Below, one piece after another: positions 47,165-49,390 of a stretch of 64,000 bases of DNA. This stretch comes from Lacinutrix sp. WUR7 (GTDB lineage Bacteria > Bacteroidota > Bacteroidia > Flavobacteriales > Flavobacteriaceae). The stretch is taken from positions 2,366,001-2,430,000 of the forward strand of contig NZ_CP045067.1 of assembly GCF_016864015.1 (NCBI RefSeq), read 5' to 3'. The notes under the pieces were generated by a model that made no database searches, was not told the DNA's origin, and was given only the letters and a program-made list of their open reading frames with translations. The position numbers and the translations under genes were made by a program. Position 1 is the stretch's first letter; each line of letters begins with the position of its first letter.

Positions 47165-47375
47165 TCGCTTATCCCAAACTTGTTTTGGGATCTCAGAGAT
47201 TCTATTTTTTCGTTTTCACGGAAAGTGTACGAATCGCTTATCCCAAATTCATTTTGGGATCTCAGGAAATCCCTTTTGTGAATAACGAAAAGGATATAAC
47301 AAGATTTTATAGAAAGAATAATTCTTTCAGTGAAACGTTTGTCATTCAGAGTATAGCGAAGAATCTCAATAAATA
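47165..47375. repeat. Flavobacterial interspersed repeat cluster
   Basis: This gap after icmF holds no gene. CGCTTATCCCAAA...TTTTGGGATCTCAG occurs twice (about 47166-47195 and 47234-47263), each a hairpin (ATCCCAAA / TTTTGGGAT). Between them lies TTTTCGTTTTCACGGAAA (47207-47224), an inverted copy of the element at 43517. It ends with GTCATTCAGAGTATAGCG (from 47341) and AAGAATCTCA, a word I know as a highly repeated intergenic element of Flavobacteriaceae. The short ORFs predicted here on both strands are by-products. Confidence 0.7.
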
Positions 47376-47435: not shown

Positions 47436-47909
47436 ATGTCTATCAAACACACTTTTAAAGCAACCGTAAATTGGACAATAAACGAAGGAGAAAGCACGCA
47501 AAATCCAAGAATCTTCAGTCGAAATCATGAAGTTTTCATTGACAACAAAGCAACACCATTGCATGTGTCTGCAGCAAAAACCTTTAGAGGTGACGATGCA
47601 TTATACAATCCGGAAGATTTATTATTATCTGCTTTAACTTCCTGTCACATGATGTCTTATTTATACGTGTGTGCTCAAAATAATGTCGAAGTAGTAAGCT
47701 ATACCGATCATGCAGAAGGAGATTTAGAAGTTGCAGCTTCAGGAAGTGGAAGTTTTAAAACGGTACGATTAAAACCAGTAGTAACCATAAAAAATGCTAG
47801 TCAAAAAGAATTGGCTTTACGTTTACATGAAAAGGCAAATAGTTTATGCTTTATAGCTAATTCGTGTAATTTTCCAATTGCTCATGAGGCGACTATAGTG
47901 GTTCAATAA
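47436..47909 (+). CDS. OsmC family peroxide-related protein
   Basis: The 157-residue product has the OsmC/Ohr fold. The first redox Cys is in NPEDLLLSALTSCHMMSY (about residue 71) and the second in LCFIANSCNFPI (about 143-150). An N-terminal TVNWTINEGES strand and the Arg/His-rich loop VSAAKTFRGD are also typical. Members reduce organic hydroperoxides with paired Cys residues; it is probably an OsmC-like (YhfA) subgroup rather than Ohr proper. It lies 82 bp upstream of a Cys-rich metallothionein-like gene and a Cys-tailed sigma factor, so a redox or metal link is conceivable. Confidence 0.88.
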   Translation: MSIKHTFKATVNWTINEGESTQNPRIFSRNHEVFIDNKATPLHVSAAKTFRGDDALYNPEDLLLSALTSCHMMSYLYVCAQNNVEVVSYTDHAEGDLEVAASGSGSFKTVRLKPVVTIKNASQKELALRLHEKANSLCFIANSCNFPIAHEATIVVQ

Positions 47910-47991
47910 TAAGTTTGAAAAAATAATTCAAATGTTTTGCATCTTTTTTAATGGTATCACGTCTATTATATGAACATAAAAATTAGATATC

Positions 47992-48093
47992 ATGAAAAAT
48001 AAAGAATGTACTTGTAACTGTGATGGTTGCTCTAAAGGAAATTGCCAAAACTGTACTTGCGAAAACTGTACCTGTACAAGTTGTAACTGTTAA
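47992..48093 (+). CDS. Metallothionein-like Cys-rich protein of 33 residues
   Basis: This short frame begins MKNKECTCNCDGCSKGNCQN and continues with CTC and CNC motifs. Eleven of 33 residues are Cys, arranged as C-x-C and C-x2-C, with few hydrophobic residues and no aromatic residue. That is the composition of a small metallothionein-like metal-binding protein. It lies 80 bp upstream of a sigma factor whose tail is also Cys-rich. The start codon and frame are unambiguous. Function is inferred from composition only: binding of Cu(I), Zn or Cd, or a thiol buffer. It is too short for most gene callers. Confidence 0.75.
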   Translation: MKNKECTCNCDGCSKGNCQNCTCENCTCTSCNC

Positions 48094-48117
48094 GCAATAC
48101 TTAAAGACAGTAATAAC

Positions 48118-48155
48118 AACGCTAATTGTAGTAAATTTATACTATGATTAGCGTT
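48118..48155 (+). promoter_or_regulatory. Long imperfect palindrome between the Cys-rich gene and sigZ
   Basis: AACGCTAAT (48118-48126) pairs with ATTAGCGTT (48147-48155). After a 2-base mismatch, TAGTA pairs with TACTA around AATTTA. The centre is 36 bp upstream of the sigZ start. It may be an operator or a weak terminator of the preceding short gene. Confidence 0.45.
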
Positions 48156-48172
48156 ATTTATAGTATATCCTT

Positions 48173-48712
48173 ATGAAAACTCAAGACATTTGGGAATTGC
48201 ATGCAGACGACATCAAATATTTTATATTCAGTAAAGTAAAAGATGCCGTTGTTGCTGAAGATTTACTCCAAGAAACATTCATTAAAGTGCATACCAAACT
48301 AAACACTTTAAAAGACGAAGACAAATTGAAGTCTTGGTTATTCGCTATAGCAAGGTATACCGTTTTAGATTATTTTAGAAGTAAAAAAGTGGTGTATGAA
48401 ACTACAGATGAAGATTTTATTTTTGAAGAACAAAAACTAGAGCATACTGAAATAGATTGTTTGCATGGTATTATTAAAAGCTTACCTAAAAAGTATAGAG
48501 ATCCTTTGTTTTTAAGTGATATAAAAGGTGTCAAACAACAACAAATAGCAGAACAATTGCACCTACCATTACCTACCATAAAATCCCAGATACAACGTGG
48601 TCGAAAAATGATTGCACAAGGTTTTGTAGACTGTTGCGACTTTGTAATAAATGAAGAAGGTTTTTTAGTTGGAGAAATCAAAGACAAAGCAGACTGTAAA
48701 ATGTGTCATTAA
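48173..48712 (+). CDS. sigZ: SigZ-type ECF sigma factor with Cys-rich C-terminal tail
   Basis: The 179-residue product has region 2 (AEDLLQETFIKVHTKL, SWLFAIARYTVLDYFRSKK) and region 4 (LPKKYRDPLFLSDIKGVKQQQIAEQLHLPLPTIKSQIQRGRK). A tail of about 30 residues carries DCCDFVINEEGFLVGEIKD and ends KADCKMCH, giving four Cys and a His. SigZ proteins lack a classical adjacent anti-sigma gene, and none is seen here. In CorE-type ECF factors a C-terminal Cys-rich domain senses metal directly; a similar role is plausible but inferred. Its upstream neighbour, a Cys-rich peptide, is a natural candidate target or partner. Confidence 0.88.
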   Translation: MKTQDIWELHADDIKYFIFSKVKDAVVAEDLLQETFIKVHTKLNTLKDEDKLKSWLFAIARYTVLDYFRSKKVVYETTDEDFIFEEQKLEHTEIDCLHGIIKSLPKKYRDPLFLSDIKGVKQQQIAEQLHLPLPTIKSQIQRGRKMIAQGFVDCCDFVINEEGFLVGEIKDKADCKMCH

Positions 48713-48775
48713 TACGTACCTTTGTGCAGAATTAAGACGATTTATTTCGTTTTACAACTTACAAATTTACGTAGC

Positions 48776-49390
48776 ATGTCCTTTAAAAAATTAAATCCAG
48801 TATTAAAAGAAGCCTTAGAAACTCTTAATTATGAGGCACCTTTACCTTTTCAGAAAGAAATATTACCAAAGATAAAAGGAGGAGCAAATGTATACGGATT
48901 AGCTCCAAAAGGTTCTGGTAAAACGACAGCTTTAATCATAGCAATCATTCATAAATTAAAAGCAGAAGCTTTTGAAGATTCTCCTAGAGCATTAGTTATT
49001 GTAAAAGACAAGCAAGCCGCTTTAGACTTAAAAGAAGAGTTTGAAAAGTATACTAGATACATGGATTTAAGAATCTATGCAGCTTATGATGAGCAAACTT
49101 TAGACCAACAACGCGAGGAAATTTATTACGGAGTAGATGTTTTAATTGCAACACCAAAACGTTTGAACAAGCTTTACTTTATGAATAGTGTGCATTTAGG
49201 GCAACTTAAATTATTAGCTTTAGATGATGCTGAGTTTTTAATACGTAATAACTACCATAATGATGTTTTACGTGTTACCGAAAGTTTAGCGAAATGTCAA
49301 TATGTGCTTTTAGCCGAAAAAATGCATTCTAAATATGAGCGTCTTCAAGATACAATTATGTACAATGCACAAATAGTAGAAGGGAAATAA
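48776..49390 (+). CDS. Single-lobe DEAD-box-like ATPase protein
   Basis: From the start at 48776 (MSFKKLNPVLKEALETL) there are 204 residues; an upstream start at 48722 would add 18 that look untranslated. A Q-motif-like segment (APLPFQKEILP), motif I (LAPKGSGKTTALI), a Ia-like stretch (RALVIVKDKQAALDL) and a motif II equivalent (LLALDDAEFL) are present, with DDAE in place of DEAD. There is no second RecA lobe: the protein stops after about 200 residues. A full helicase needs both lobes, so this may bind RNA or ATP without unwinding. The family appears conserved in Flavobacteriaceae as a short form. Confidence 0.82.
   Translation: MSFKKLNPVLKEALETLNYEAPLPFQKEILPKIKGGANVYGLAPKGSGKTTALIIAIIHKLKAEAFEDSPRALVIVKDKQAALDLKEEFEKYTRYMDLRIYAAYDEQTLDQQREEIYYGVDVLIATPKRLNKLYFMNSVHLGQLKLLALDDAEFLIRNNYHNDVLRVTESLAKCQYVLLAEKMHSKYERLQDTIMYNAQIVEGK

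Follow-up and report, generated by a model that had tools for sequence, protein, structure and literature searches.

Do a 33-residue, 11-Cys protein and the Cys-tailed ECF sigma factor encoded next to it in Lacinutrix sp. WUR7 form one regulatory unit and, if so, to which signal would this unit respond? All positions below refer to the window, i.e. the whole stretch of 64,000 nucleotides that was analysed. An earlier note, made from the letters alone, had described a 33-residue ORF with 11 Cys, a palindrome and a SigZ-like ECF factor with four Cys and a His in its tail. All were found again in place: the tail residues are C154, C155, C175, C178 and H179, beyond sigma4, and the long palindrome between the two genes occupies 48115-48158. 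The promoter at 47938-47965 and the conserved linker residue C96 are features that the note had missed. The locus comprises the following elements:

47436-47909: OsmC gene, upstream of the peptide gene
47938..47965, + strand: ECF-type promoter (-35 TGCATC at 47938-47943, 16-base spacer, -10 CGTCTA at 47960-47965)
47992..48093, + strand: Cys-rich peptide gene (type A, 33 aa, 11 Cys, metallothionein-like)
48118..48155, + strand: terminator-like hairpin in the gap between the peptide gene and sigZ (16 pairs, 6-base loop)
48173..48712, + strand: sigZ, SigZ-like ECF sigma factor (179 aa, Pfam and NCBIfam matches)
48458..48460, + strand: codon of the linker cysteine C96 in sigZ
48584..48586, + strand: codon of Ser138, in the sigma4 helix 133-155 (AF2), predictor of -35 base 3
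48632..48709, + strand: C-terminal Cys tail of SigZ, proposed metal sensor (C154/C155 at 48632-48637, C175 at 48695-48697, C178 at 48704-48706, then H179)
48722-49390, + strand: DEAD-box protein, N-terminal RecA half only

The peptide gene (translation MKNKECTCNCDGCSKGNCQNCTCENCTCTSCNC, ORF 47992-48093) and sigZ are on the same strand, separated by a gap of 79 bases. The genes adjoining the pair in the window encode OsmC-like and DEAD-box proteins, neither of which is an anti-sigma factor. Regarding these surroundings, no second helicase domain was found by a Pfam search of the DEAD-box gene, and a stand-alone DEAD-box ORF of about 200-240 aa follows sigZ in 16 of the 24 type-A loci examined. 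A short palindromic repeat (TCCCAAA...TTTTGGGATCTCA) is present in two copies, at 47172 and 47241, between OsmC and an ORF identified by eye as methylmalonyl-CoA mutase-like.

Judging by its conservation, the short ORF is a real gene and not a chance ORF, because an ORF of the same kind precedes close sigZ homologues, its dN/dS is low and its Cys are invariant. The type-A Cys pattern is CxCxCxxCx4CxxCxCxxCxCxxCxC, and all 11 Cys and one Gly are the invariant positions of a 20-sequence alignment. Compared with the window copy, the median dN/dS of the peptide gene was 0.12 on the 29 usable pairs out of 38, many of which are near saturation, the remaining pairs being dS-saturated. Among the peptide genes of the relatives it was 0.18 over 409 pairs (dS 0.05-2), with 99.8% of the values below 1. 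Such ratios indicate purifying selection on the peptide gene. Bacterial metallothioneins (SmtA/BmtA, MymT) and the mammalian MT alpha domain consist of Cys for about one third, with CxC/CxxC spacing, and the alpha domain has an M4S11 stoichiometry. The peptide combines the features expected of a metallothionein (small size, about 30% Cys, CxC/CxxC motifs), 11 of its 33 residues being Cys. It resembles these proteins in Cys share and spacing, its 11 Cys equalling the alpha-domain M4S11 count, and differs from SmtA/BmtA, MymT and MT alpha in being shorter, in matching no profile and in lying beside a sigma factor rather than being controlled by an ArsR/SmtB-type repressor. Searching Pfam and NCBIfam at an E-value of 0.1 returned 0 families for the peptide, no curated metallothionein profile being matched, and 0 matches for six further SigZ-linked or orphan Cys-rich peptides. 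The SigZ-linked peptides are diverse, with 11 Cys in 33 residues, 14 in 37, 8 in 26-27, 13 in 43 and more. Peptides of 58-59 residues with 14-15 Cys and many CC pairs, unlike the CxC types, were observed at loci L187 and L189.

A SigZ-like match at an E-value of 1e-15 was detected in 80 of 299 sampled genomes of the family, and a close SigZ (E-value of 1e-44 or better, identity of at least 41%) in 36 genomes, that of the host included, from 28 genera. The earlier note had made its claim depend on conservation of the pair across Flavobacteriaceae, and the pair proved to be conserved: the peptide lies directly upstream of the close SigZ in 36/36 genomes, with 11 Cys in 35 of them. In the exception, G188, both genes appear to be decaying, because the peptide is frameshifted and the 5' end of sigZ is broken; in G047 the pair is split over contigs. 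The peptide profile matched 48 of the 299 genomes, 36 with a close SigZ and 12 without a SigZ match. Thus a close SigZ was never seen without the peptide, and the peptide can occur without SigZ. Around these 12 SigZ-less peptides (L256-L267), neither a SigZ ORF nor the promoter motif (0/12) was found, the ORF rule recovering the peptide itself in 11 of the 12 cases. The peptides in these 12 genomes, several small or incomplete, are type-A-like. Within 21 loci taken from named genome records, the peptide is present in the 18 closest (Lacinutrix, Olleya, Oceanihabitans, Algibacter, Seonamhaeicola, Winogradskyella and other genera); at L057 another kind of Cys-rich ORF is present, and at L058 and L059 (31% and 26% identity) there is none.

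The 16-base spacer of the promoter begins with a T-run, and a -10 CGTC is typical of ECF promoters. Using a relaxed pattern, the 28-base layout was recovered in all 51 distinct upstream regions of type A, at a distance of 53-57 bases from the start codon in 47 of them, and it is found in 9 of 11 type-B upstream regions. The number of further targets was estimated by a scan with one consensus and a fixed spacing. In the host genome, TGCATC-N16-CGTCTA has a single exact match, which is this locus, and 7 two-mismatch matches versus 11 for the reversed pattern. A larger SigZ regulon in the host was rejected on these grounds, the two-mismatch level being that of background. The scan was also run with at most one mismatch on 55 genomes, 35 with the pair and 20 without a SigZ match at an E-value of 1e-15. 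The promoter was found at the pair in 31 of the 35 pair genomes; exact matches numbered 16, all at the pair locus, and 0 in the 20 genomes without a SigZ match. One-mismatch matches off the locus (7 in the 35 SigZ genomes versus 3 in the 20, with 3 and 4 for the reversed pattern) look like background. The surroundings of five of these seven (L269-L273) were scanned for the motif, SigZ and Cys-rich ORFs. At L269 (G083:C14, around 987, - strand) a second near-consensus SigZ-type promoter was noticed in a genome where the promoter of the peptide itself has diverged, making it a possible extra target. Within the limits of one consensus and one spacing, SigZ appears to have one promoter.

Recognition of this promoter by SigZ was analysed by covariation on 65 loci, including the window, having C or T at -35 base 3 and the motif within 700 bases of sigZ. 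SigZ residue 138 is Ser or Thr in all 51 loci where this base is C, and Ala, Val or Met in all 14 loci where it is T. Among 179 positions, residue 138 has the highest mutual information with -35 base 3 (0.752 bits, the next value being 0.555), and it belongs to the second helix of the sigma4 helix-turn-helix (helix 133-155 in the AF2 model). Since residue 138 predicts base 3 in 65/65 loci, SigZ very probably reads -35 base 3 of the peptide promoter, and direct recognition would be expected to leave such a match at a residue of the recognition helix. When placed on a tree, each trait requires two changes and both independent pairs agree (sign test p 0.5). One type-A locus, L063, with A at -35 base 3 and Ser138, falls outside the 65-locus pattern and count.

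The stem at 48118-48155 was scored as terminator-like (1 found versus a shuffle mean of 0.3), and the whole leader in the window folds with a z-score of -3.95 against dinucleotide shuffles. For the 90 bases following the peptide stop, all 62 regions have a z-score below -1, and 50 of the 51 of type A and 7 of the 11 of type B have one below -2; these folds include the start of sigZ, with mononucleotide shuffles as the sole reference. The stem sequences are unrelated, and such a structure kept while the sequence turns over suggests that the stem is under selection. No known RNA element was detected at the locus by Rfam at gathering scores. We propose that the hairpin is an attenuator of sigZ; by terminating part of the transcripts, it would keep the amount of sigma factor below that of the peptide. 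The gene pair, the promoter, its near-unique target, the covariation of sigma factor and promoter and the intergenic stem are strongly supported. The compact unit put forward in the earlier note, a sigma factor with its own Cys-rich peptide, is borne out by the conservation, the promoter and the promoter/sigma covariation.

The sigZ product matches sigma70 r2 and r4_2 in Pfam, and two SigZ models are by far its best NCBIfam matches: NF007215 (177.5 bits, residues 1-178 aligned to positions 1-181 of 181) and TIGR02959 (161.0 bits, residues 7-167 aligned to positions 1-164 of 170). SigZ (TIGR02959/PRK09637) is thus its best family, aligned over nearly the full length including the tail region after sigma4; the scores nevertheless stay under both curated cut-offs (212 and 168.65), the latter of which is exceeded in just 13 of 395 genomes of the phylum. 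To our knowledge, Bacillus subtilis SigZ has had no function assigned since it was named. The AF2 model (pTM 0.44) has a usable core and a tail of low confidence. No solved structure with the Cys tail was found among 18 sequence matches, two of which reach residue 167 while the rest end by 149.

Sampling was widened by a further 60 loci of SigZ type and, as controls, 40 ECF factors without the tail. The resulting set of 98 SigZ-type proteins, chosen and not exhaustive, was drawn from 99 loci and the window copy, less two duplicate proteins; it leaves out 11 middle-scoring phylum matches (about 97-128 bits), several weak family matches, L001-L038 and L080-L109. The controls are lower-scoring phylum matches (E-values of about 1e-28 to 9e-26), of which L212, L226 and L244 are shortened by contig ends. 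Among the 98 proteins, 49 are accompanied by a Cys-rich peptide (24 of type A), 24 are ars-linked and 25 have neither neighbour. The ars-linked neighbours, within 1.2 kb, are 11 ArsI, 6 ArsM, 5 ArsP and 2 ArsI + ACR3; next to the 40 control ECFs no Cys-rich peptide or ars neighbour was found. Representative neighbours above NCBIfam cut-offs are two arsenite methyltransferases, two ArsI/CadI and two ACR3; the ArsP call rests on a Pfam permease match, ArsC-like matches are below cut-off, and the remaining ars labels correspond to phmmer E-values below 1e-8 to one representative each. The ArsI homologue of L193 is encoded on the other strand. Two peptide-linked loci (L065, L180) are also beside ACR3, so that arsenite remains a candidate signal for the peptide-linked type too. 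The strict promoter motif was present at 31 of the 48 SigZ loci linked to a peptide, 17 of the 24 linked to ars genes and 8 of the 25 remaining ones, in 0 of 40 tail-less ECF loci, one of which has the -35 core alone, and in 0 of 137 reversed flanks. We also matched 20 plasmid SigZ records and read four regions. On Arenibacter pSMS7, SigZ is accompanied by a thioredoxin-family protein and a permease, and on a Hymenobacter plasmid ArsC and ACR3 lie close to it; the Vibrio and Priestia plasmid SigZs have no annotated metal gene nearby, which argues against a metal role for every SigZ. From these neighbourhoods, the function of the SigZ family in Bacteroidota appears to be the detoxification of soft metals and arsenic. 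Counted against a detoxification switch are the 25 of 98 proteins without either kind of neighbour and L071, which has a full tail and no peptide.

The tail Cys are kept throughout the 98 members, C154 in 95, C155 in 83, C175 in 88 and C178 in 72, and the tail columns are empty in 40/40 control ECFs, partly by choice since these are low scorers. The conserved tail Cys, the lack of an adjacent anti-sigma factor and the many relatives beside metal or arsenic detoxification genes point, indirectly, to the tail as a metal sensor. Linker residue C96 is Cys in 49/49 peptide-linked, 2/24 ars-linked and 19/25 other SigZs and in 0/40 control ECFs. The peptide-linked versus ars-linked difference is marked (Fisher 1e-16, 'other' rows excluded), and a tree of C96 and target class requires 4-5 changes, with one supported independent pair, or 5 on an unsupported tree. 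The association, being phylogenetically clustered, may reflect shared ancestry. C96 need not be a metal ligand, because it is present in 19 of the 25 'other' members, a group with eight one-Cys tails. These eight (L169, L173, L195, L200, L202, L204, L205 and L206) form a single-Cys-tail subgroup, possibly a non-metal branch; in one member, L107 (the same locus as L173), the downstream sequence resembles a PhzF-type protein, judged by eye.

C-terminal extensions without anti-sigma factors are a known non-canonical ECF mechanism, according to the available text of PMC8999054. CorE of Myxococcus xanthus, which the earlier note had taken as the nearest parallel, and CorE2 (former ECF44, ECF238) share with SigZ a Cys-rich C-terminal extension and the absence of a linked anti-sigma gene. 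The available portions of PMC3107203 and PMC8999054 describe the CorE extension as sensing metal and as needed for copper-dependent activity. The parallel holds for function, but not for the linker motif or the spacing of the Cys. CorE has six tail Cys, four of them invariant in the group (181, 184, 192, 194), in the portion of PMC3107203 available, a spacing distinct from the CC-x19-C-x2-C of SigZ (154, 155, 175, 178). Likewise, the CXC linker motif, a feature of former ECF44 members and absent from about 85% of ECF238 in the available text of PMC8999054, is replaced in SigZ by the single C96. CorE, as far as the same sources go, activates cuoB and copB, whereas SigZ would drive essentially one adjacent peptide gene. 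The 21 sigma factors of the 2011 CorE paper cover four phyla, Bacteroidota not being among them (PMC3107203). In OrbS of Burkholderia cenocepacia, a C-terminal Cys cluster is the on-board Fe(II) sensor of an ECF sigma factor; OrbS, as presented in the accessible part of PMC9023288, is an iron-starvation sigma factor inhibited by Fe(II), a physiological logic opposite to that proposed for SigZ. In the open-access literature, we found no paper joining SigZ and metallothionein, no bacterial metallothionein with a sigma factor in Bacteroidetes or Flavobacteriaceae, and no ECF sigma factor with arsenite/arsM or arsenic resistance in Bacteroidetes; for SigZ and arsenic, the available text gave just single mentions of SigZ, in a Bacillus genome paper and a cyanotoxin review.

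We consider it likely that SigZ is an on-board-sensing sigma factor for soft metals or metalloids which drives essentially one detoxification gene, forming a self-contained switch. In this mechanism, we infer metal binding by tail and peptide, the sign of the switch, the identity of the metal and the function of the hairpin. A thiophilic metal (Cd, Zn, Cu, Hg, Pb or As(III)) would bind the CC...CxxC tail of SigZ, possibly with C96, and enable SigZ to work with RNA polymerase. By analogy with CorE and OrbS, such metal-dependent activation through the tail is the most likely one. SigZ would then read TGCATC-N16-CGTCTA and direct transcription of the 33-residue, 11-Cys peptide, which would chelate the metal. 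At the hairpin after the peptide gene, a fraction of transcripts would continue into sigZ, leaving the peptide in excess and SigZ positively but weakly autoregulated.

The layout of a short ORF rich in one codon, a terminator-like hairpin and then a regulator gene is also that expected of cysteine attenuation, where the Cys-codon ORF would be a functionless leader peptide and ribosomes stalling on it when Cys is short would prevent the terminator and turn on sigZ. A leader of this kind agrees poorly, however, with the fixed amino-acid pattern and spacing of the peptide and its low dN/dS, with the Cys-rich ORF that lies downstream of sigZ under its own promoter copy in L159, L160, L161 and L166, with the peptides of genomes lacking a SigZ match and with the relatives whose neighbour is ArsM, ArsI or ArsP instead; we regard it as very unlikely. 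The vicinal CC of the tail could alternatively belong to a thiol or peroxide sensor, forming disulfides under oxidative stress, with the 11-Cys peptide as a thiol buffer working together with the OsmC peroxidase encoded upstream in the window. The earlier note had drawn attention to this OsmC gene, a hint that did not hold: homologues of OsmC were seen upstream in no more than 14 of the 24 type-A loci examined, every one of them belonging to the syntenic close group, and in none of the type-B loci examined (within 2-3 kb), whereas many relatives adjoin arsenic and metal genes. The OsmC/peroxide link was consequently rejected, OsmC being incidental and merely syntenic in the close group, and a thiol or peroxide sensor seems improbable.

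A CC...CxxC tail could also form a Zn knuckle, in which case SigZ would be constitutive with a structural zinc site, with autoregulation and the hairpin alone determining its level, and the peptide would be a housekeeping zinc store. The same kind of tail nevertheless accompanies ArsM, ArsI and ArsP genes, which are usually inducible, and the number and spacing of tail Cys differ between SigZ subgroups, both arguing against a structural site, to which we give a small though not negligible chance.

Beyond the metal-responsive switch preferred here for the window, we put forward with some doubt a broader reading in which SigZ is a widespread one-component sigma factor for soft metals and metalloids, with dedicated near-unique promoters, interchangeable detoxification genes and a Cys set which tunes the ligand. 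A site of three thiolates is suited to As(III), and one of four to divalent cations. Applied to the Cys sets of SigZ, an inference on our part, CC + C without C96 in the ars-linked proteins would bind trigonal As(III), and C96 + CC + CxxC in the peptide-linked ones, that of the window included, would bind four-thiolate cations. Since C178 is kept in 12 of 24 ars-linked proteins, the three-thiolate picture fits only part of them. Genes common to ars operons (ArsM, ArsI/CadI, ACR3, ArsP) adjoin the more distant SigZs, whereas ars operons are known to be controlled by repressors such as ArsR. If true, this would be a regulation of arsenic and metal resistance of a type absent from the literature searched.

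Very short metallothionein-like peptides appear to exist in several kinds, and the seven scanned examples match neither Pfam nor NCBIfam families. One sigma factor, one promoter and one peptide would also make a compact metal biosensor part. The SigZ family gains a promoter, a class of targets and a class of signals that can be put to the test, and the results suggest that in Bacteroidota resistance to arsenic and metals can be controlled through a sigma factor.
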